Of a stretch of DNA of 7,231 nucleotides, positions 1 to 7,231 are shown piece by piece (position 1 is the first letter of the stretch; each line of letters starts with the position of its first letter). The DNA is taken from positions 1 through 7,231 of the forward strand of contig JAFTEG010000266.1 in NCBI GenBank assembly GCA_017453765.1, given 5' to 3'. Origin of the DNA: Selenomonadaceae bacterium. Lineage in GTDB: Bacteria > Bacillota > Negativicutes > Selenomonadales > Selenomonadaceae. A program made the position numbers and the translations under genes. Under the pieces are notes generated by a model. That model made no database searches. It saw only the letters and a program-made list of their open reading frames with translations, and had not been told where the DNA came from.

Positions 1-307
1 TATTAATGTCGGATTGAATTCCAATTTCATCTTTATCAAGGTTCAAATGTTTTGCCAAAACTTCACGAACTTTTTCAAAAACGGGATCGTCTTCCATATT
101 ATATTTGTCATAGGGAAGGATTTTTCTTACAAGGTCATTGAGCAAATCAACATTTTCACGAAGTGCGGCAATTTCGGCGTAAATGGTGGAAAGATTGACG
201 TCGGCATTAGCATTTTCACGAAGTTTGCGAAGCTCCGATTTTAAGGTTTTGACTTCAGCGCGGCTTTTCAAGTATTCGCGTTTCCAATTTTGAGAATCAA
301 GAGCCAT
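1..307 (-). CDS. Coiled-coil protein with C-terminal acyl-carrier-protein-like domain (partial, runs off left edge)
   Basis: This open frame starts at ATG 307-305 and runs off the window after 102 codons without a stop. A GGGGGA Shine-Dalgarno lies 6 bases upstream. Residues 8-62 are charged and leucine-rich (WKREYLKSR, LKSELRKLREN, IAALREN, LLNDLVRKI) and look like a coiled coil. From about residue 76 the sequence VFEKVREVLAKHLNLDKDEI resembles helix I and the first loop of acyl carrier proteins (E. coli ACP has VKKIIGEQLGVKQEEV). The phosphopantetheine serine (DSL motif) would lie a few residues beyond the window edge. An ACP with a coiled-coil N-terminal extension is larger than the usual stand-alone ACP of about 80 residues. 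The ACP assignment rests on about 25 residues. If correct, the protein carries acyl chains or an aryl or peptidyl group, and the coil may mediate dimerisation or docking. It is divergent from the amidohydrolase. Confidence 0.6.
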   Translation of the reverse strand, partial: MALDSQNWKREYLKSRAEVKTLKSELRKLRENANADVNLSTIYAEIAALRENVDLLNDLVRKILPYDKYNMEDDPVFEKVREVLAKHLNLDKDEIGIQSDIN

Positions 308-350
308 AAAAATTCCCCCATACATTAGCTATAAAATTTTACTTAAAATG

Positions 351-380
351 ATTTTACTACCCATTACCTTTTGACGTCAA
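351..380 (-). promoter_or_regulatory. Probable promoter of the coiled-coil/ACP gene
   Basis: On the minus strand, TTGACG (380-375) and TAAAAT (356-351) are separated by 18 bp, matching sigma-A consensus at five of six positions in each box. The -10 box lies 43 bases upstream of the ATG. The -35 box sits inside the palindrome at 371-380. Confidence 0.55.
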
Positions 381-398
381 GCATAAAATTTTTATTAA
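371..398 (+). promoter_or_regulatory. Possible promoter of the amidohydrolase gene, sharing a palindrome with the divergent promoter
   Basis: The 10-bp sequence TTGACGTCAA (371-380) is a perfect palindrome, so it offers a -35-like TTGACG on both strands. On the plus strand a weak -10, TATTAA (393-398), follows after 16 bp. The -10 is a poor match in AT-rich sequence, so this assignment is tentative. If both promoters are real, the divergent genes share one -35 palindrome and could not be bound by two polymerases at once. Confidence 0.35.
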
Positions 399-461
399 TA
401 ACTAAGATTTTTTTGGATTTTCGATTTTTTAATTTAGCAACAACATAAATTGAGGTGCCAA

Positions 462-1352
462 ATGATTATCGACATTCACACGCATATTTTTCCAAACAAA
501 ATATCCGCATCGACTCTTGAAAAGTTGAGCGGCATAAGCCACAGTACGCCTTTCACTGACGGCACGTTGGACGGACTTTTACAGTCAATGAAAAAATTTC
601 ACGTCGACATTTCCGTAATCCTACCCGTCGCCACAAAGCCGGAGCAGGTTATAAAAATTAACGACAATGCCGCGCAGATTAACGAAAAATATTTTGACGC
701 TGATAAAAAATATTTTAATGCCGATGAAAAGCACTTGGACGCGGGGATTATCTCTTTCGCAAGCATTCACCCCGACTTTGAAGACTTTCGCGCAGAATTG
801 AGCCGCGTAAAAAATTTGGGCTTTAAAGGCATTAAAATTCACCCCGTCTATCAAGGTACGAATCTCGACGACAAAAAATTTCTGCGCATAATTTACCGCG
901 CCGCCGAACTTGATTTAATCGTTATCACGCACGCGGGACTTGACATAGGTTTTCCCGGCAAGATTAACTGCACGCCGAAAATGTCGCGTCACGTTGTAAA
1001 AGAGATTGGCGAATTTAAATTTATTTTGGCGCATATGGGCGGCTGGAAAAATTGGGACGAAGTTGCAGAGGAGCTTGCCGACTTGAATATTTTTATCGAC
1101 ACCGCCTTTTCAACCGGCTTAATTCCTGCGAAAGACAATTACTACAGCGAAGAGGAATTGAAAATGTTGGACGCGGCAGGTTTTATGCGGCTTTATGAAA
1201 TTTTCGGCGCAGAAAAAATTTTATTCGGCACGGACAGCCCTTGGATGGCGCAGGGTATGCCGATTGATTTTATCAACCGCCTGCCGATTGGTGACGCCGA
1301 TAAAAATAAAATCTTCGGTTCCAATGCGGCTAAACTGTTAAACTTAAAATAG
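462..1352 (+). CDS. Amidohydrolase-2 family metal-dependent hydrolase (TIM barrel)
   Basis: This 296-residue protein is close to the usual size for the amidohydrolase-2 (ACMSD-like) family. Visible metal and catalytic elements are H6-T-H8 on the first strand, GIKIHP (123-128), H157 in ITHAG, H191 in LAHMGG, and D258 in FGTDSPW. Together they make a zinc-type hydrolase or decarboxylase likely; the substrate cannot be told. I chose ATG 462 because GAGGTG (452-457) sits just upstream. A TTG at 450 would add four residues but swallow that ribosome site. Residues 76-95 contain three consecutive copies of a K-[YH]-[FL]-[DN]-A-[DG] heptapeptide, placed just before the strand leading to FASIHPD. I read this as a small insertion in a surface loop. 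The gene is transcribed alone and converges on the ACT-domain gene. Confidence 0.88.
   Translation: MIIDIHTHIFPNKISASTLEKLSGISHSTPFTDGTLDGLLQSMKKFHVDISVILPVATKPEQVIKINDNAAQINEKYFDADKKYFNADEKHLDAGIISFASIHPDFEDFRAELSRVKNLGFKGIKIHPVYQGTNLDDKKFLRIIYRAAELDLIVITHAGLDIGFPGKINCTPKMSRHVVKEIGEFKFILAHMGGWKNWDEVAEELADLNIFIDTAFSTGLIPAKDNYYSEEELKMLDAAGFMRLYEIFGAEKILFGTDSPWMAQGMPIDFINRLPIGDADKNKIFGSNAAKLLNLK
687..749 (+). repeat. Three 21-bp imperfect tandem repeats inside the amidohydrolase gene
   Basis: Units start at 687, 708 and 729 and encode KYFDADK, KYFNADE and KHLDAG plus one residue. The first two share most bases (AAATATTTT core), and the third has diverged more at DNA than at protein level. The unit length keeps the frame. 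It looks like a local in-frame duplication that lengthened a loop. Confidence 0.7.
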
Positions 1353-1355
1353 CTC

Positions 1356-1387
1356 AAAAAAATATCAGTGAAAAAATTTTTCCACTG
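1356..1387 (-). terminator. Intrinsic terminator of the paaK-ACT operon
   Basis: On the minus strand CAGTG-GAAAAA (1387-1377) pairs with TTTTTT-CACTG (1376-1366) with one mismatch, and is followed by ATA and a run of seven T (1362-1356). The U-tract on the minus strand side makes this a terminator for the paaK-ACT unit. The hairpin's own A/T stem could also act on the converging amidohydrolase transcript, but no T-run follows on the plus strand. The first stem arm coincides with the last unit of the adjoining heptamer array. Confidence 0.7.
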
Positions 1388-1436
1388 ACCACTGACCACT
1401 ATTAACTATTAACTATTAACTATTTACTATTTACTA
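1381..1436 (-). repeat. Heptamer array A, starting at the stop codon of the ACT-domain gene
   Basis: Eight 7-bp units lie in unbroken register, read on the minus strand from the TAG stop (1436-1434). They are TAGTAAA twice, TAGTTAA three times, TAGTGGT, CAGTGGT, then CAGTGGA. The last unit forms the first arm of the terminator stem. Six of the eight units contain TAG, and the T-to-C change in the last two removes it. Confidence 0.9.
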
Positions 1437-1859
1437 AACATCCGCAATTTCGTCCTGCGACAAAGATTTCAAACCTTTACTCGCCAAAAGTTTTTCCGCC
1501 GTCTTCGTATCGCTAACGCGGAAAATCATAAAGGCGTTTTTTTGTCCCGCAAATGCGTACATATATTCAATGTTGACGTCGGCTTCTGCAAATTTCTGCA
1601 AAAGTTTATTCAAACTGCCCGCCTCGTCCGTAATGCCGTAAACCAAAACCGGCGTAAACGTTGCGACAAAGTTCGCCTCTTTCAAAACGTTAGTGGCCTC
1701 AAAAACGTCATTCACAATCATTCGTACAATGCCGAAGTCCTTTGTATCGGCAAGCGACAAGGCGCGAATGTTGACGTTGTGTTTCGCCAAAACTTCCGTC
1801 ATTTTATTCAGCGTGCCGGGTTTATTTTCCAAAAACACGGAAACTTGATTGACGCTCAT
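1434..1859 (-). CDS. Tandem ACT-domain protein, partner of PaaK
   Basis: This 141-residue protein is made of two ACT domains, about 3-68 (VSVFLENKPGTLNKMTEVLA, with the usual E-N-K-P-G-T-L ligand loop) and 71-138 (LVYGITDEAGSLNKLLQKFA). ACT domains bind small effectors, usually amino acids. Stand-alone tandem ACT proteins of this kind are commonly found next to phenylacetate-CoA ligase in anaerobic Bacillota and archaea and are thought to sense an aromatic amino acid or its product. There is no catalytic domain, so a regulatory role is inferred. ATG 1859 is chosen because GGAAGG (1872-1867) sits 7 bases upstream; a GTG at 1886 would include that site. The gene lies 39 bp after paaK and is probably co-transcribed with it. 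Its stop codon is the first unit of heptamer array A. Confidence 0.88.
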   Translation of the reverse strand: MSVNQVSVFLENKPGTLNKMTEVLAKHNVNIRALSLADTKDFGIVRMIVNDVFEATNVLKEANFVATFTPVLVYGITDEAGSLNKLLQKFAEADVNIEYMYAFAGQKNAFMIFRVSDTKTAEKLLASKGLKSLSQDEIADV

Positions 1860-1898
1860 GCTATCACCTTCCTGTTTAAAATTCACTGCCTGTTGAAA

Positions 1899-3200
1899 TT
1901 AAATTTTACGCCTGTCAATAACGCGAACGGCTTTACCTTCACTGCGGGTAATGGATTTCGGCGCGACGAGAGAAATTTTCGCCTTAATGCCGAGCATTGA
2001 GCGTAAACCGTCTTCCAAAACTTTTTTGCGTGCTTGAATTTCGCCGACATTGTCGGTGAACATATCCGGCGTCATTTCAACGTTAATGTCGAAAGTATCG
2101 GTATGGTTCACGCGGTCAACGATAATTTGATAATTCGCCGCGTAACCGTTTTTAAGCAGTACCGTTTCAATTTGGCTGGGAAATACATTGACGCCGCGAA
2201 TGATTAACATATCGTCCGTGCGACCCTTAAGCCGCGTCATCTTTATCAGCGTGCGACCGCAGGAACATTTTTCACGCGTCAAGCTGCAAATATCGCGCGT
2301 ACGATATCTGAGCAGGGGGAAGGCTTTTTTGTCAAGGCAGGTGAAGACCAATTCGCCAAGTTGACCTTCAGGTAACACGTCGCCTGTTTCGGGATTTATA
2401 ATTTCAGGGTAGAAGTGATCCTCTTGAATATGCATGCCGTTTTGTTCGGAGCATTCGCAGGAAACGCCGGGACCGGAAATTTCTGTCAAGCCGTAAATAT
2501 CATAAGCCTTAATGCCCAACGTTTTTTCAATATCGCGGCGCATTTCTTCCGACCATGCCTCTGCACCGAAAATTCCAATCTTAAGCGGAATTGTTTCCGG
2601 CGTGTAACCCATTTCCTTCATTGATTCGCCTAAGTACGCGGCGTAGCTGGGAGTGCAACAAAGAATCGTTGCCTGCAAATCCATAATGAACATAACCTGA
2701 CGTTCGGTGTTGCCGGAGCTTGTAGGAACAGTCATACAGCCTAATTTATGTGAACCGCCGTCAAGCCCCGCGCCGCCGGTGAATAAGCCGTAGCCGTAGG
2801 ACACTTGACAAACATCTTTTTTCGTGCCGCCCGCCATCATTATCGCACGTGCGCAACATTCATTCCAAATGTCAATGTCATTTTGCGTATAAAAGGCAAC
2901 GACGCGCTTGCCGGTAGTGCCGGACGTTGAGTGAATACGAACGCACTCATCAATCGGCACGCCGAGCATACCGTAGGGGTACGCCTCTTTCAAGTCAGCT
3001 TTTGTCAAGAAAGGCAACTTGTACAAATCGTCGACAGATTTAACGTCGCCGGGCTCAACGCCTTTGTCCTGCATTTTCTTGCGGTAGTAGGGGACGTTGT
3101 CCCAAACGTGCTGAACCTGCGCGGGGAGTAATTTATTTTGAATTTCACGCAGTTTTTCAACAGGCGCACACTCAATTTCCGGCTGGAAATAATGTTCCAT
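1899..3200 (-). CDS. paaK: Phenylacetate-CoA ligase
   Basis: This 433-residue protein has the full length of the family. It activates phenylacetate or a related aryl acid to its CoA thioester using ATP and CoA in the cytosol. Seen in the sequence: the adenylate-forming P-loop STSGTTGK (91-98), the A5-like motif DIYGLTE (234-240), the hinge region RLKGRTDDMLIIRGVNVFP (323-341), a CSCG cysteine cluster just before it, and the C-terminal lysine in SEGKAVRVID (K423). The C-terminal subdomain matches the one typical of PaaK. ATG 3200 is preferred over an upstream TTG at 3221 because GAGGA (3213-3209) stands 8 bases before it. In anaerobes this enzyme often works with indolepyruvate:ferredoxin oxidoreductase to make or use aryl-acetyl-CoA during aromatic amino acid metabolism; those genes are not in the window. 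The exact aryl substrate is not determined. Confidence 0.93.
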   Translation of the reverse strand: MEHYFQPEIECAPVEKLREIQNKLLPAQVQHVWDNVPYYRKKMQDKGVEPGDVKSVDDLYKLPFLTKADLKEAYPYGMLGVPIDECVRIHSTSGTTGKRVVAFYTQNDIDIWNECCARAIMMAGGTKKDVCQVSYGYGLFTGGAGLDGGSHKLGCMTVPTSSGNTERQVMFIMDLQATILCCTPSYAAYLGESMKEMGYTPETIPLKIGIFGAEAWSEEMRRDIEKTLGIKAYDIYGLTEISGPGVSCECSEQNGMHIQEDHFYPEIINPETGDVLPEGQLGELVFTCLDKKAFPLLRYRTRDICSLTREKCSCGRTLIKMTRLKGRTDDMLIIRGVNVFPSQIETVLLKNGYAANYQIIVDRVNHTDTFDINVEMTPDMFTDNVGEIQARKKVLEDGLRSMLGIKAKISLVAPKSITRSEGKAVRVIDRRKI

Positions 3201-3225
3201 AAAAGTTTTCCTCACTTCCAAAATT

Positions 3226-3250
3226 TGTTAATTCCTTTAGAACATTAACA
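3226..3250. promoter_or_regulatory. Candidate operator of the paaK promoter
   Basis: A perfect inverted repeat, TGTTAAT (3226-3232), 11-bp spacer, ATTAACA (3244-3250), starts at the last base of the -10 box and covers the predicted transcription start. The 18-bp centre-to-centre spacing would put both arms on nearly the same DNA face, as expected for a dimeric repressor. No matching regulator gene is in the window. Confidence 0.45.
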
Positions 3251-3278
3251 TTATAGTTGTTGAAAGAAAATGTTGCAA
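3250..3278 (-). promoter_or_regulatory. Strong sigma-A promoter of the paaK-ACT operon
   Basis: TTGCAA (3278-3273), a 17-bp spacer and a perfect TATAAT (3255-3250) on the minus strand give the best promoter in the window. The leader to the paaK ATG would be about 43 bases. Heptamer array B ends a few bases before the -35 box. Confidence 0.8.
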
Positions 3279-3284
3279 GGGGTT

Positions 3285-3389
3285 GTTAGGAGCTAGTGGT
3301 TAGGGGCTAGGAACTAGGGAACAGGGATTAGGAATTTTCATCCCTAATTCTTAATTCATTACGCATTGCGAATTACGCCTTACGCATTA
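3285..3389 (-). repeat. Heptamer array B, starting at the stop codon of aroH and ending at the paaK promoter
   Basis: Fifteen 7-bp units in register can be read on the minus strand from the aroH TAA (3389-3387). The first seven are of a TAATGCG-like type that degrades (TAATGCG, TAAGGCG, TAATTCG, CAATGCG, TAATGAA, TTAAGAA, TTAGGGA). The TGAAAAT unit (3340-3334) then separates these from seven of TCCTAAC or CCCTAGT type. The junction can fold as a 6-bp hairpin, ATTAGG with CCTAAT. Most units carry TAA or TAG. The units are degenerate, so exact edges are uncertain. Confidence 0.85.
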
Positions 3390-3749
3390 ATCCAAGTCGG
3401 GGCGAAGTTTTTTCGCGTCGCCTAAGTAAACGTGACAAAGTTCGTGCAAACTCTTATCAATGTCCGCCAAAACCAAAACCCTTATGCACTTCTGCATACT
3501 ACCTTCAACGTCCATTTCCTGCGTATCGAAAAGCGGCAGGTGTTGAAAATTTGGAAGTTGACGTACGCCGCCTGCGGGAAATGCAGCAGTTAAATCTTTC
3601 GTGCAGGAAAAAATTACCGCGCCTACCGTGTCAGGGTGAATTTGGTTTGCCGACAAAAGTTCTGTTATGAGAAATTGCGCCGCGTTCCAAATTGCCTTCT
3701 GCGAATTTTCTTCAACGGTTATTGCGCCTCTTATTCCTCTCAATGCCAT
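3387..3749 (-). CDS. aroH: Chorismate mutase, AroH type
   Basis: This 120-residue protein catalyses the rearrangement of chorismate to prephenate, the branch step to phenylalanine and tyrosine. It aligns almost end to end with the trimeric B. subtilis AroH fold. The active-site residues known for that enzyme are found at the same numbers: R7, F57, R63, E78, R90 and Y108, within RGIRGA, AAFPAGGVR, QEMDV, KCIRV and HVYLG. It ends at LRPDLD, a few residues shorter than B. subtilis AroH, which loses only the mobile tail. ATG 3749 has GGAGGG 7 bases upstream. The start follows the TIR gene stop by 22 bp, so the two are probably one transcript. That pairing is unusual, since other aromatic biosynthesis genes are absent here. 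paaK downstream has its own promoter. Confidence 0.94.
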   Translation of the reverse strand: MALRGIRGAITVEENSQKAIWNAAQFLITELLSANQIHPDTVGAVIFSCTKDLTAAFPAGGVRQLPNFQHLPLFDTQEMDVEGSMQKCIRVLVLADIDKSLHELCHVYLGDAKKLRPDLD

Positions 3750-3771
3750 TTACATTCCCTCCAATTGTCGA

Positions 3772-4557
3772 TTAACTTTTTTTGAAAACGTCTTCAAATT
3801 CTTTAAAGACCGGCGATAATGGTATTGTTGCAAATGATTTAAATCTTGCTGAATCAGTTGAACTTGTCTTAGTCGTGTCGCTGTCCCTTCTATATTTTTG
3901 AGGTTGATTGATAATCGCTTTAACATCCACTCCTCTGCTTTCAAAAAAACTACGAGCCGCCGAATCTTTCAACATATCTTTCAATAACGCCGCCGCTATA
4001 AAATTTCCTTTGAGTGATGGGCGAATAAGATATTCAAAAGCCTTTACAAATTTTTTTTGTTTTATATATTTAGAGGCGGTATCCAAAAGCCATGTTGTCG
4101 TTGCCTCGCCTTGACTTTTTTGCAGTGCCGTTGCGTCAATCAATCTTTCAAAAAATTTTTCGCGATTTTCTTTGTACTTATAAAATTTCGCGGCTTGAAT
4201 GAAATTAAAAACTTCCAGTTCAGGGGACAAATTGATTTCTTCTAATGACTCCAAATGAATGGGGAACAAAATTTTTTTATTCGACTTCGCGCAGTCAATT
4301 TCACGCTTACAATGCGGCGATTTGTTATACTCAGCCAAAATAAACGCCATTACCACATCGCAGTTTACAATGTGATTTTCTAAATCCTGCGTCCACTTTT
4401 GCCCCCACTCTAAGCCTTCGTCATACCAAATTCTGAAACCGGCGTCATTGAGCTTTTCAAGTATTTCAAAAACTGTCGGCGCGTCGGTATGTTTGTAGCT
4501 GACAAAAATATAGGGTTCGTCGCCTTCGTACGGCGTAAAAGAGCATTTAAGTTGCAT
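3772..4557 (-). CDS. TIR-domain protein with C-terminal helical region
   Basis: This 261-residue protein has no signal peptide or membrane segment. Residues 15-105 form a bacterial TIR domain: YIFVSYKHTDAP on the first strand, GFRIWYDEGLEWGQKW around the BB loop, DVVMAFILAEYNKS, and SPHCKREIDCA, in which E86 occupies the position of the catalytic glutamate of NAD-cleaving TIR enzymes. Residues 150-205 are helical and TPR- or Sel1-like. The tail from about 215 is rich in Ser, Thr and charged residues and probably disordered. Many bacterial TIR proteins hydrolyse or cyclise NAD in immunity or stress; others only scaffold. The retained glutamate favours an enzyme, but this is inference. No ThsA-like or other known effector gene is adjacent. 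ATG 4557 has GGGGAG 7 bases upstream. The gene is followed by aroH 22 bp later. Confidence 0.85.
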   Translation of the reverse strand: MQLKCSFTPYEGDEPYIFVSYKHTDAPTVFEILEKLNDAGFRIWYDEGLEWGQKWTQDLENHIVNCDVVMAFILAEYNKSPHCKREIDCAKSNKKILFPIHLESLEEINLSPELEVFNFIQAAKFYKYKENREKFFERLIDATALQKSQGEATTTWLLDTASKYIKQKKFVKAFEYLIRPSLKGNFIAAALLKDMLKDSAARSFFESRGVDVKAIINQPQKYRRDSDTTKTSSTDSARFKSFATIPLSPVFKEFEDVFKKS

Positions 4558-4593
4558 TGTGGAACTCCCCTTTGTCAGGCGGTGTATTTTAAA

Positions 4594-4635
4594 ATTTTTA
4601 ACCCCTAACCCCTAGTCCCTCTTCACTAATCCCTA
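4594..4635 (-). repeat. Heptamer array C, starting at the stop codon of the ABC-ATPase gene
   Basis: Six 7-bp units can be read on the minus strand from the TAG stop (4635-4633): TAGGGAT, TAGTGAA, GAGGGAC, TAGGGGT twice, then TAAAAAT. Five of the six begin with a stop triplet. The units resemble the CCTAAC-type half of array B read on the opposite strand. The array fills most of the gap before the TIR gene's ribosome site. Confidence 0.82.
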
Positions 4636-5709
4636 CAAATTATATTTTTCGCGAATCTGTTGTTGTACCGTTTCATTGCCCAAAAATTCTTCGTACGTAC
4701 AAATTCTGTCAACGGTGCCGTTCGGCGTAACGTCAATGATTCTGTTGGCAACAGTCTCAACAAGTACGCGATCTTTGGACGAAAAAATTATCGTGCCGCC
4801 GAACTCTTTCAAGGCGCGTTCAAACTCTTCAGTCTGCGGCAGGTCAAGGCAAGTCGTGGGGTTGTCCAAAAGTAAAAAGTTCGCGCCGCTTTTCTTCAAC
4901 GCGTCAATCTCCGCCCGCGCGGCGGTACTTGAATAAACCTGCGGCATATACGCAATTTTCACGTCGTCGCTGAAATTTATAGTGCCTTTGAATGATTCGG
5001 CTGAATGTTCATTGCGCCAAAATGAATTTAACGTCTTTAAAAGGCGTGACTGTCCGAATTGGTTTTGTCCTACCAACGCGATTTTTTGTCCGCGCCTTAT
5101 GGTAAAGCTTACGTTTTGAAAAATCGTTTCGCCGTCACGAACTTTTAATAAATCGTCCACTTCCAAAATAATCGGCGTCGACAAGTCCTTAGGGTCAACC
5201 GCCGTGAAATCTTCGTCGCACTGTAAATTTATCGGCGTGACTTTCTTTTCACCGAGCGGGATAATTTCCTTGCACGAAGACCACAAAAAATATCTGTCGT
5301 TGCTGACAATGATGGCGGTTAAATCTTGTCGCGTCTTTAAAAAATCTATCAGCCATTCAACGCCGCCTGCGTCCAAATTTTTTGTAGGCTCATCCAAAAG
5401 TAAAATTACTTCCGAATCTTTCAAGCCGTGCAGAGCACGTTTCAATTTGTCAATCGCGGACATTTCAGCCATATGCAGTTCGGAAAAATCGGAATAGGCA
5501 CTGCCGGTGACAAGTAACACTTCGCCGAAAACCCGCGCACTGCCGGAAGTTGGCGGCAGGCGTCCCGCTATTATGTCAAGCAATGAAGATTTGCCGGAGC
5601 CTTCACTGCCGATAATGCCGACCTTTTCGCCGCGCTTCACGTCGAGATTTAAGCCTTTGAAAATTTCTTTTTGACCGAGTTGCAGAGTCAAATTTTTTAT
5701 CTCTACCAA
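4633..5709 (-). CDS. Short, degenerate tandem ABC-ATPase related to ABC-F proteins
   Basis: This 358-residue protein holds two nucleotide-binding domains, no membrane segments, and is well below the 500-650 residues usual for ABC-F. Domain 1 (1-165) keeps Walker A GSEGSGKS (34-41) and Walker B LLLDEP (103-108), but the H-loop histidine is asparagine (N137 in SNDRYF) and the LSGGQ signature is reduced to MSAID (83-87). Domain 2 (181-340) has Walker A GQNQFGQS, with the lysine replaced by Q220. Its Walker B is LLLDNP, with the catalytic glutamate replaced by N283, and its H-loop is SKDR. Only 19 residues separate the Q-loop AYMPQ from the Walker B strand, so the helical subdomain and signature are gone. 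It may bind ATP at site 1 but is unlikely to hydrolyse normally. The start is TTG 5709, with GAGAGG 9 bases upstream and no ATG near. It could be a ribosome-associated or regulatory relic. Confidence 0.8.
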   Translation of the reverse strand: MVEIKNLTLQLGQKEIFKGLNLDVKRGEKVGIIGSEGSGKSSLLDIIAGRLPPTSGSARVFGEVLLVTGSAYSDFSELHMAEMSAIDKLKRALHGLKDSEVILLLDEPTKNLDAGGVEWLIDFLKTRQDLTAIIVSNDRYFLWSSCKEIIPLGEKKVTPINLQCDEDFTAVDPKDLSTPIILEVDDLLKVRDGETIFQNVSFTIRRGQKIALVGQNQFGQSRLLKTLNSFWRNEHSAESFKGTINFSDDVKIAYMPQVYSSTAARAEIDALKKSGANFLLLDNPTTCLDLPQTEEFERALKEFGGTIIFSSKDRVLVETVANRIIDVTPNGTVDRICTYEEFLGNETVQQQIREKYNL

Positions 5710-5805
5710 TTTGTTATACCTCTCAAAAAATTTTGCGGTAAAAATTCTGCCAACAAATTATTTTTCCTGCTTAATAGCCGGTAGCCTGCCCTCTACCTTT
5801 TTAAT

Positions 5806-5840
5806 TCCATTACGCATTGCGCCTTACGCATTACGCATTA
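5806..5840 (-). repeat. Heptamer array D, entering the 3' end of the methyltransferase-STAS gene
   Basis: Five 7-bp units can be read on the minus strand: TAATGCG twice (5840-5827), TAAGGCG, CAATGCG, TAATGGA, then AT-rich sequence. The units match the first half of array B nearly exactly. The first two units are coding and supply the last codons of the gene (M-R-N-A and part of the isoleucine). The stop TAA (5826-5824) is the first triplet of the third unit. Confidence 0.87.
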
Positions 5841-7050
5841 TCTTGTAGCCGTTTTCTTTCAAAATCTTTTTTACTTCGTCATTGGCATTGCTTATTTTAA
5901 AAAGGTTAGCGTCTTTCAAAGACTCCTGCATAATTTCAAACGTGTGCAATCCCGCGTAAGAAATGTAGCTGAGTTCGGTTGCGTCTACGTGAATTTCGGT
6001 AAAGCCGCTTTGCTCTTCGTATTTTTCAAGCAATTTAGGCGCTGTAATCGTATCCAAACGCCCGCGCAGACGTATTGAAAGGACGTTATCGGTCAGTGAA
6101 AATTCCTGCGCGAAAGGTTTTTCGGCGTCCAAATTACCTTGAAAATTTTCAGCGTCCGTGTCATCAGCCGTAATCAGCCATTCTTCCATTTCTTGGTACG
6201 CCGCCAACATCTTTTCCATTAAGTCCGGCTTATCTTTCAGCGAAGGGATAAAGTTTAATTTTTCGGGATAACGAAAACTTTTTACGCTAAAGCCGCACTC
6301 TTTCAAAAAGCGCCGCCGTTCCTCAAGCGTTCCCTCCATAAAAAGTGCGCCGTTACTTGAATCGGTATGCGCTATTTTGTTGCGTCCGCTGTCATTTAAA
6401 TTCCAAATATAATCTCTGTCGCCGCCGGTAAGTACGACGTATGTTAGCGCCATTAAATCGGTGAATTGAGAGTCCGAAGTATACCAACAGCCGCCAAATT
6501 CCCTTAGCAAACGGTGAACATTTGCACAAACCGCTTTTAAATCGTGGAATTTAAAATATCCCAAAAAGCCGTCAGTAATGATACAGATTTTGCCGCGAAC
6601 ATCTTTCAAGGCGTTGCGCATCGACTCATAATTTGTCGCGTCAATGCCGTGATATTGCACAAAATTTTTTTCGGCGTCACTTAAATATTTCGCGGCAACG
6701 GGAGCAATTTCCTCAGTTACAATCGGCAGGTCAAAGCCGTAGTAATTTTTATTCAGCCGCGCCGCTATCAGACTGTGCGGAAGGTAACCGCAGGGCAAAT
6801 CGACAATCGTTTGGCAGTCGGTATCCTTCGCAATTGCGTTCCACATATGATAGCGCGCCTCCAGCGAAATTACTCGACTTTCGGTAACGGGGTCAGACAT
6901 GTCAAATGAAATAAGCCGCTCTTTGTCAATGCCGCCATAAAAATTTTTAATGTCGACGTCGCCTGTTTCTGCCAAAAGACCAAGACAGCCTTTCGCGCTA
7001 AAGTAAATCGGATTTACTTTTTTCAAAATTTCATCATGATTTATAGACAT
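5824..7050 (-). CDS. SAM-dependent methyltransferase (LCM-like) fused to a STAS domain
   Basis: This protein has 408 residues and no membrane segment. Residues 1-285 look like a class I methyltransferase close to the leucine carboxyl/LCM group: motif I region TIVDLPCGYLPHSL (81-94), acidic ribose ligand in YYGFDLP (D107), HGIDAT (134-139), and ITDGFLGYF (158-166), which stands where related enzymes have an EG-x-x-x-YL motif. A linker rich in Asp and Glu (290-312) leads to a STAS domain (about 317-403): LRGRLDTITAPKLLEKYEE, IHVDATELSYISYAGL, and a final helix. The usual serine pair before AGL is S-Y here, so the phospho-acceptor serine of anti-sigma-factor antagonists appears replaced by tyrosine (Y365). 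The substrate is unknown. ATG 7050 has GGAG 7 bases upstream. The last residues come from heptamer array D. Confidence 0.82.
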   Translation of the reverse strand: MSINHDEILKKVNPIYFSAKGCLGLLAETGDVDIKNFYGGIDKERLISFDMSDPVTESRVISLEARYHMWNAIAKDTDCQTIVDLPCGYLPHSLIAARLNKNYYGFDLPIVTEEIAPVAAKYLSDAEKNFVQYHGIDATNYESMRNALKDVRGKICIITDGFLGYFKFHDLKAVCANVHRLLREFGGCWYTSDSQFTDLMALTYVVLTGGDRDYIWNLNDSGRNKIAHTDSSNGALFMEGTLEERRRFLKECGFSVKSFRYPEKLNFIPSLKDKPDLMEKMLAAYQEMEEWLITADDTDAENFQGNLDAEKPFAQEFSLTDNVLSIRLRGRLDTITAPKLLEKYEEQSGFTEIHVDATELSYISYAGLHTFEIMQESLKDANLFKISNANDEVKKILKENGYKIMRNA

Positions 7051-7056
7051 AAAAAA

Positions 7057-7071
7057 TCTCCTTTTCGGAGA
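7057..7071 (-). promoter_or_regulatory. Small hairpin sequestering the Shine-Dalgarno of the methyltransferase-STAS gene
   Basis: On the minus strand TCTCC, loop GAAAA, GGAGA forms a 5-bp stem in which the second arm holds the Shine-Dalgarno. Six T follow, then the ATG. It could damp translation or pause polymerase. A 5-bp stem is weak and the arrangement could be chance. Confidence 0.4.
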
Positions 7072-7075
7072 AAAT

Positions 7076-7103
7076 ATTTTAACTGATTGAAATCTAAAGT
7101 CAA
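7076..7103 (-). promoter_or_regulatory. Promoter of the methyltransferase-STAS gene
   Basis: TTGACT (7103-7098), 16-bp spacer and TAAAAT (7081-7076) on the minus strand each match consensus at five of six positions. The -35 box begins at the base where array E ends, so the array and the promoter abut with no gap. Confidence 0.65.
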
Positions 7104-7204
7104 GTTAGTGGTTAGATCGATAGTAGTTAGATCGATAGATCGATAGTAGTTAGATCGATAGTATTTTTTCCAACGATCTATCGATCCACCGATCCATCGA
7201 GCTA
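7104..7204. repeat. Array E: 8-bp GATCGATA-type repeats in two opposed halves
   Basis: The left half (7104-7163) holds GTTAGTG and then three blocks starting GTTAGATCGATA, of 15, 23 and 15 bp, containing one or two copies of octamer GATCGATA. A T-run (7164-7169) separates it from a right half which, read on the minus strand, gives octamers GATCGGTG, GATCGATA and GATCGTTG (7194-7171) preceded by GCTCGATG. A perfect 13-bp inverted repeat joins the halves (7130-7142 with 7174-7186), and a 9-bp stem with a 16-base loop is also possible (7153-7161 with 7178-7186). Seven GATC sites fall within 80 bp. The right half begins at a minus-strand TAG (7204-7202). Confidence 0.85.
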
Positions 7205-7231
7205 ATAATTTTCTGCGTTGATTTCAAAATA
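7202..7231 (-). CDS. Possible 3' end of an unidentified gene (partial, right edge)
   Basis: Nine sense codons, read on the minus strand from the edge, give YFEINAENY and then TAG (7204-7202). Nine open codons prove nothing alone. The call rests on the pattern at four other loci, where a short-repeat array begins at a minus-strand stop codon. No function can be assigned. Confidence 0.4.
   Translation of the reverse strand, partial: YFEINAENY

Follow-up and report, generated by a model that had tools for sequence, protein, structure and literature searches.

Inward-facing arrays of 7- and 8-bp tandem repeats between genes of a Selenomonadaceae bacterium

Why should one gene after another end in a short tandem repeat? 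The question is raised by the window, as we call a stretch of 7,231 bases from a rumen bacterium of the Selenomonadaceae (GenBank assembly GCA_017453765.1, contig JAFTEG010000266.1, positions 1 to 7,231), which is the whole of contig 149 in a 2.09-Mb assembly of 431 contigs that is 69% complete; the genome is labeled G000 below. An earlier note on this sequence had described five arrays of 7- or 8-bp units at gene 3′ ends, regarded unit length and stop codon content as their shared property, and proposed a genome-wide class of elements that guard against readthrough or frameshift extension or that arise by slippage seeded at stop codons. All five arrays are present, two of them being weak (Table 1), and the class is indeed genome-wide, with stop-rich units and enrichment at stop ends; stops are not its organizing rule, however. 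That rule is polarity: where arrays of both orientations share an intergenic gap, the G-rich array almost always comes before the C-rich one, whatever the arrangement of the genes.

Abundance and inward polarity

Genome-wide counts were made in contigs C1 to C80 of the 431 (415,829 bases), chosen by number rather than content; the window was added for the counts of array order, neighboring pairs, and gap lengths, for the unit profile, and for the statistics on 3′ ends and unit lags. Genes were called with a simple codon-usage caller, arrays were accepted from a score of 11, and ten dinucleotide shuffles provided the chance level. The 80 contigs hold 100 arrays of period 7 and 22 of period 8, while periods 6 and 9 are represented by just 3 and 2, respectively; the shuffles gave 0.1 to 0.2 arrays per period (mean of 0.1 for period 7), which excludes a chance origin of the arrays genome-wide. 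As had been proposed, the arrays have in common a unit length of 7 or 8 bp, with sequence free to differ between them. Most are intergenic (90/100 of period 7 and 19/22 of period 8), though called genes cover 77% of the sequence. Among gaps of at least 30 bp, 59 of 164 tandem, 6 of 17 convergent, and 5 of 18 divergent ones contain an array, with densities of 3.73, 4.85, and 1.86 arrays per kb, respectively; median gap length is 104 bp with an array (n = 74) and 97 bp without (n = 130). That the two operon pairs of the window lack internal arrays is correct and yet uninformative, because their gaps measure just 22 and 30 bp. The G033 sample (L180 to L199) holds, besides 21 arrays of period 7, 9 of period 14 and 10 of period 15.

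We denote as R an array that is G-rich (purine-rich) on the + strand and as Y one that is C-rich, and we call an arrangement inward if R stands before Y across the gap. This order is found in 36 of the 37 gaps with both orientations: in 25/25 gaps of G000 (18 tandem, 4 convergent, and 3 divergent), in 5/5 of G033, and in 6/7 at the relatives' loci, where the sole exception is a YRY arrangement. Adjacent array pairs in G000 comprise 25 RY, 2 RR, and 1 YY, and YR pairs are absent under all nine threshold settings. The two arms of a pair are separated by 0 to 26 bp in 35 of 36 cases (one pair is 236 bp apart), with a median of 8 bp. The polarity extends to the arrays as a whole. On the + strand, the left half of a gap holds mostly G-rich period-7 arrays (30 G-rich, 8 C-rich, and 2 neither) and the right half mostly C-rich ones (30 C-rich, 11 G-rich, and 2 neither). 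Read in gene sense, the arrays near stops comprise 36 G-rich, 9 C-rich, and 1 neither, and those near starts comprise 9, 22, and 3, respectively. The polarity is similarly clear for arrays that start after the stop (23/30 G-rich in sense) and for those that enclose it (23/28).

The same rule emerges from a pattern search in 37 genomes of the genus, in which overlapping matches were counted. The inward pattern TTAGN3TTAG..CTAAN3CTAA has 461 matches in 28 genomes and its outward counterpart has 5 in 5; since both contain equal letters, base content does not explain the difference. Read backwards, the inward pattern has 7 matches in 3 genomes. In a separate search, the backward reading of the pattern was another phase of the same heptamer and hence unusable as a control. 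Evidence that the rule extends past the genus is weak, with 31 inward matches in 13 and 8 outward matches in 7 of the 298 other genomes of the phylum and with 3 inward matches and 1 outward match in 23 genomes that belong to the class but not to the genus. Eight of the 31 inward matches come from G065, where those listed are near-identical 26-bp palindromes; this palindrome recurs in G065, with several copies close to contig starts. G219 and G148, which represent other families of the phylum, are equally dense in TAGN4 arrays (534 and 334, with controls of 5 and 12), yet contain 0 and 4 inward TTAG matches.

Stop codons, units, and precedents

In tandem gaps, arrays do prefer stops: 39 of 61 start no more than 5 bp past the stop compared to 26.9 under uniform placement, a count reached in 1 of 2,000 placements, and 42 start within 10 bp compared to 31.3, with no excess at 0 bp itself (22 compared to 22.3). 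Neither outcome that the earlier note had named as refuting, a lack of preference for stops or units of 6 and 9 bp as common as those of 7 and 8, was thus observed. A period-7 array is found at 58 of 320 gene 3′ ends, enclosing the stop in 28 cases and beginning −2 to 12 bp after it in 30, and the other 262 ends have none there. The earlier note had placed the stops at 1434, 3387, 4633, and 5824 at the start of their arrays; the first three lie on the first unit, whereas the stop at 5824 falls within the third, with 14 bp of array read as codons before it (..ATG CGT AAT GCG, then TAA). Upstream of the candidate stop at 7204, the coding part is limited to nine codons before the contig ends. Stop-enclosing arrays are depleted in TGA (1/28, compared to 71/262 at array-free ends; P = 0.005); a preference for TAG as the stop is not significant (12/28 compared to 76/262; P = 0.14). 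At the start side, 0 of 100 array edges overlap a start codon, the arrays ending short of it.

The G-strand profile of 91 arrays reads T-A-R-G-R-R-T, and the arrays contain stops because TAG and TAA belong to this unit itself. Among 3′-end arrays, the unit carries a stop in 47/52 cases in sense, compared to 34.7 with permuted letters, and in 36/52 in antisense, compared to 17.5. Frequent units differ by genome, being TAGTNAG in G002, TAGCTGT in G017, and TAGGAAT in G024 among the matches listed. Within the genus, TAGN4 matches range from 0 to 620 per genome, with 501 in G000 (backward control, 32), and no period-7 array was found in the samples of G003 and G034 (323 and 369 kb). In contig C6 of G040, eight identical copies of a 24-bp TAG-periodic string are scattered across the contig and therefore constitute an interspersed repeat, not a local array.

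Paired arms mostly carry unrelated units. Their outer units are identical in 0.09 of 46 places, compared to 0.12 with partners swapped within the genome; these places are the ones among the matches listed for seven genomes, two were merged from overlapping matches, and G029 and G031, with one place each, were left out, as were the class genomes. Arm lengths are uncorrelated (Spearman coefficient of 0.12, n = 35). Composites of R arm, gap, and Y arm nevertheless fold at −0.390 kcal/mol per arm nucleotide, compared to −0.171 after letter shuffling and −0.338 after partner swapping (35 pairs). Together with the unmatched arm units, this indicates that stems can form but that locus-specific pairing is weak.

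Gaps turn over between relatives. By the AMP-binding enzyme, the closest named relatives are ruminant Selenomonadaceae, at 93% in loci L011 and L012 and 81% in two Quinella assemblies. L011 retains the order of the ABC, chorismate mutase, AMP-binding, ACT, and amidohydrolase genes, with the TIR gene missing. The gap between the chorismate mutase gene, which we take to be aroH, and that of the AMP-binding enzyme, presumably PaaK-like, has no array in L011, though the latter gene with its promoter is 88.6% identical to that of the window; compared by eye, this single gap resembles a replacement more than a clean insertion. Behind aroH in L012 there is, again by eye, a weak TAGCTTK array, its unit unlike that of the window. 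The aroH product ends in DLD in the window, its TAA stop being supplied by the first array unit, and is one residue longer in L011 (DLNV) and in L012 (DISF). Behind the ACT gene, the window and L011 share a terminator-like hairpin, and their arrays differ in size and units.

Heptameric repeats between genes have precedents. The short tandemly repeated repetitive (STRR) sequences of heterocystous cyanobacteria are 7-bp tandem units between genes, with defined units and in another phylum. The GGGNATC heptamers of Xanthomonas and Nostoc are described as intergenic, with the G-rich strand being the coding strand near or over stops and the noncoding strand near starts, for any ORF (open reading frame) direction; they are rarer between divergent ORFs, form close convergent pairs (70 in Xcc and 75 in Xac), and vary in length and sequence between close species, and for Nostoc few pairs and repeat-free plasmids are reported (Rehm et al. 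2015, PMC4692102). A preference for four units and the formation of quadruplexes count among the marks of that class. Our arrays resemble this class in the intergenic enrichment of a 7-bp unit and in the orientation of the G strand at stops and starts. They differ from it in their profile, which is neither GGGNATC nor GGGGA(C/T)T, in that units vary freely within and between arrays and 8-bp arrays occur as well, whereas the portions of PMC4692102 considered here treat one kind of unit per genome, and in that the outward arrangement was counted here as a control, unlike in those portions. The TAACTGA repeats of Beggiatoaceae, Cyanobacteria, and Bacteroidetes are likewise intergenic, place stops in three frames, lie in part over ORF ends, and are scattered among relatives (MacGregor 2015, PMC4679880). 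Judging from the portions of that paper considered, however, they have a single unit, stand mostly just upstream of starts and in one orientation, and include one inverted repeat in 170 sets; TAACTGA is not the repeat of our profile or of the arrays listed. Heptamers linked to stops, three-frame stops, and convergent pairs were thus already known; the earlier note knew of no arrays tied to stop codons. New here are the lineage, the free unit sequence, and the near-absolute polarity. The tandem repeats of constant length and variable sequence in Bacillus share the combination of fixed length and free sequence, and their units measure 52 or 20 to 21 nt in the part of the source considered (PMC8161180). 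As far as the excerpts go, intrastrand triplex motifs (PMC4666352) and a survey of structure-prone repeats (PMC4060949) offered no closer match. Among the top matches listed in a search of the open-licence literature, there was neither a paper on such arrays in Selenomonadaceae nor one that proposes end growth with joining.

Possible origins of facing arrays

We tentatively favor, at clearly less than an even chance, the view that the arrays arose by slip-and-copy synthesis at purine-rich 3′ ends, followed by joining. A break or stalled fork between genes would provide the 3′ DNA ends; each end would be extended by repeated slip-and-copy of its last seven bases on the purine-rich strand, and the two grown ends would be joined, leaving an inward pair. 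Telomeres grow G-rich 3′ strands, and the fusion of two ends with such grown strands would leave the inward geometry. Because the inward order mirrors itself across the center of the gap irrespective of gene direction, it points to a two-ended process at the level of DNA and not to translation; elongation of purine-rich 3′ strands at both sides, with subsequent joining, would be the simplest process with the observed symmetry. Also in favor are the unit length, the polarity of pairs in every gene arrangement, the gradual unit change along arrays, the largely unrelated units and uncorrelated lengths of the arms, the turnover at orthologous gaps, the arrays that contain a gene's stop, and the fact that gaps are hardly longer with an array than without. 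Overlap with stops would reflect what selection tolerates, in that growth into a gene would survive only near the gene's end, and T-A-R units (TAG and TAA) would supply the invaded end with a replacement stop. Gene ends could be remodeled in this way, an array being able to give a gene its stop codon. It is a rather doubtful extension that intergenic breaks are healed in a telomere-like manner, with each facing pair marking a single healed break and the genome as a whole recording where breaks occurred. Should the polarity rule hold generally, DNA geometry would explain why heptamers are in excess in bacteria, independently of unit sequence, quadruplexes, and gene direction.

A number of points weigh against end growth and joining. 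The break, the enzyme, and the event of growth and joining are all hypothetical, and we leave the joining route unnamed because none of the 41 genus genomes searched was found to have Ku. Units change gradually along the arrays, with an identity of 0.858 at lag 1 (0.778 with shuffled unit order), 0.792 at lag 2, and 0.562 at lag 8, but detection by the likeness of neighboring units itself raises the lag-1 value, so that the series is free of bias only from lag 2 onward. Units are not more uniform at the inner end of an array (0.870) than at the outer end (0.899, n = 65), and a direction of growth is therefore unsupported. In gaps with one orientation, the rule is moderate: of 52 such gaps, 36 have arrays directed away from the closest gene border and 16 have them directed toward it. 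Nine of the 37 genus genomes lack an inward match, including G025 with its 489 TAGN4 matches; the aroH array, which we took as the case of an empty site, is itself weak; and few pairs are reported for the Nostoc repeats in the part of PMC4692102 considered. The arms also prefer their own partners, with 22 of 3,000 swaps being equally stable (35 pairs), although not significantly in G000 alone (348 of 3,000 as stable), and well-matched pairs exist, namely at the ACT end of L011 (−48.9 kcal/mol, including the terminator-like hairpin) and at 7113 to 7206 of the window (predicted RNA fold of −35.7 kcal/mol). Two candidate routes were rejected: Ku end joining, for the reason given above, and a reverse transcriptase or telomerase-like enzyme, since RVT_1 occurs in 12 of 41 genus genomes and was not found in the densest, G002 (80% complete).

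The facing arrays might instead be RNA stem-loops selected for transcript termination or 3′-end protection, with the polarity arising from the weak hybrid of pyrimidine RNA under RNA polymerase at the moment of hairpin closure, as the G-rich arm is followed by the C-rich one. The folding of native composites relative to shuffled and swapped ones, the close spacing of the arms, and the minimum of array density in divergent gaps are consistent with this explanation. The pairs resemble intrinsic terminators in being short-loop stem-loops behind genes; unlike terminators, 33 of 36 pairs have no TTTT within 12 nt past the C-rich arm, and a following T run is not a feature of the class. Moreover, a separate terminator-like hairpin, kept in L011, adjoins the ACT array, arm units are unmatched, divergent gaps share the R-then-Y order (3/3), and the G003 and G034 samples do without period-7 arrays. 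On this evidence, we consider selection for RNA stem-loops unlikely, though it deserves to be taken seriously.

Replication slippage with a 7-nt step could act anywhere in gaps and be purged from genes, with a strand bias at hairpin seeds such as terminators yielding the polarity. The portions of PMC4692102 and PMC4679880 considered describe heptamers as the most frequent class of long repeats across many bacteria and mention a proposed polymerase contact of 7 nt; the gradual change of units fits as well, and the ACT array continues into the stem of the terminator-like hairpin. Slippage alone, however, gives no cause for the imbalance between inward and outward matches, and the seeding at stops suggested earlier is possible on one side of a gap and cannot make the facing array opposite. 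Nor do MutS-type repair genes track array density; overall, slippage seems improbable. Loss of MutS as the cause was rejected, given that a strong match is missing in G000, G002, G012, G018, and G026, whose TAGN4 counts are 501, 620, 4, 20, and 2. The two densest genomes, G000 and G002, have only a weaker MutS_V match, and the sparse G012, G018, and G026 are also without strong MutS; all five assemblies are incomplete.

In fold-back synthesis, a purine-rich 3′ end would slip, snap back, and copy itself, and the arms of the resulting palindrome would later diverge. The well-matched pairs at the L011 ACT end and in the window, together with the own-partner preference in the energy test over all pairs, speak for some of the pairs having originated as hairpins or by fold-back. 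Against a wider role stand the unmatched unit types and uncorrelated lengths of the arms and the 52 array-bearing gaps with a single orientation, and we doubt that fold-back accounts for the class.

A guard against readthrough or frameshift extension, closing all frames past the stop, is very improbable. The closure as such is real: 2.43 and 2.10 of 3 frames are closed within 24 nt of array-bearing stops, compared to 1.50 without an array, and the sense units are stop-rich. But antisense units are stop-rich too, facing arrays occur at start sides and between divergent genes, most 3′ ends are bare of period-7 arrays, the G003 and G034 samples are devoid of them, and G-rich polarity is similar after and over the stop. 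Insertion of a mobile palindromic element of the REP (repetitive extragenic palindromic) or MITE (miniature inverted-repeat transposable element) kind is hardly credible, since the palindromic outline and the presence or absence of arrays at orthologous gaps are all that agree with it, whereas only a degenerate 7-periodic profile, TARGRRT, is shared in place of a common sequence and unit types vary between loci and between arms.

Features of the window

The weak aroH array scores 45 in Tandem Repeats Finder (TRF) and 8 in our scan; the facing arm at 3284 to 3335, which the scan did not detect, takes part in the predicted fold. For the weak array at the ABC ATPase gene, the TRF score is 32, and our scan detects positions 4599 to 4614 alone (score of 9). 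No Rfam family matches the window at gathering scores.

Table 1. Arrays, hairpin, and genes of the window (array units are given in gene sense unless noted)
Position	Strand	Feature	Remark
450..1352	+	Amidohydrolase (PF04909)	
1355..1388		Bidirectional terminator-like hairpin, CAGTG..CACTG with A and T runs	Between convergent genes; read from the sequence
1382..1436		Period-7 array, TAGTAAA, TAGTTAA, CAGTGGT	End of ACT-domain gene, whose stop is array TAG 1436-1434
1434..1868	−	ACT domain pair protein (PF19571)	
1899..3200	−	AMP-binding enzyme (PF00501, PF14535)	
3284..3335		Degenerate facing arm of the 3357..3389 array, + strand TTAGGAGCTAGTGGTTAGGGGCTAGG...	By eye; under the threshold of the period-7 scan
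3357..3389		Period-7 array, TAATGCG, TAATTCG	End of chorismate mutase gene, whose stop is array TAA 3389-3387; weak
3387..3749	−	Chorismate mutase type I (PF07736)	
3772..4557	−	TIR-domain protein (PF13676)	Missing at this position in L011 and L012
4599..4635		Period-7 array, TAGGGAT, TAGTGAA, TAGGGGT	End of ABC ATPase gene, whose stop is TAG 4635-4633; weak
4633..5709	−	ABC ATPase, two matched stretches (PF00005)	Probably ABC-F-like
5808..5840		Period-7 array, TAATGCG	End of STAS-domain gene; stop within third unit
5824..7050	−	C-terminal STAS-domain protein (PF01740)	
7113..7200		Period-8 inward pair, TAGATCGA type (7113-7161) and CGATCCAT type (7169-7200)	Predicted single hairpin

The hairpin between the convergent genes, which from its sequence may act as a terminator, is kept in L011, and its outer arm continues into the adjoining array. 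The period-8 pair also shows higher-order units of 15, 16, and 23 bp; its 8-bp units are mixed with 7-bp units, which yields the 15- and 23-bp periods. Arrays of 8-bp units are mostly GATCGATA-like, with units that are nearly self-complementary, in the window as well as in L102, L142, L147, L156, L157, and L159. The TIR gene is flanked by the genes of the ABC ATPase and the chorismate mutase, which in L011 and L012 are neighbors without it.

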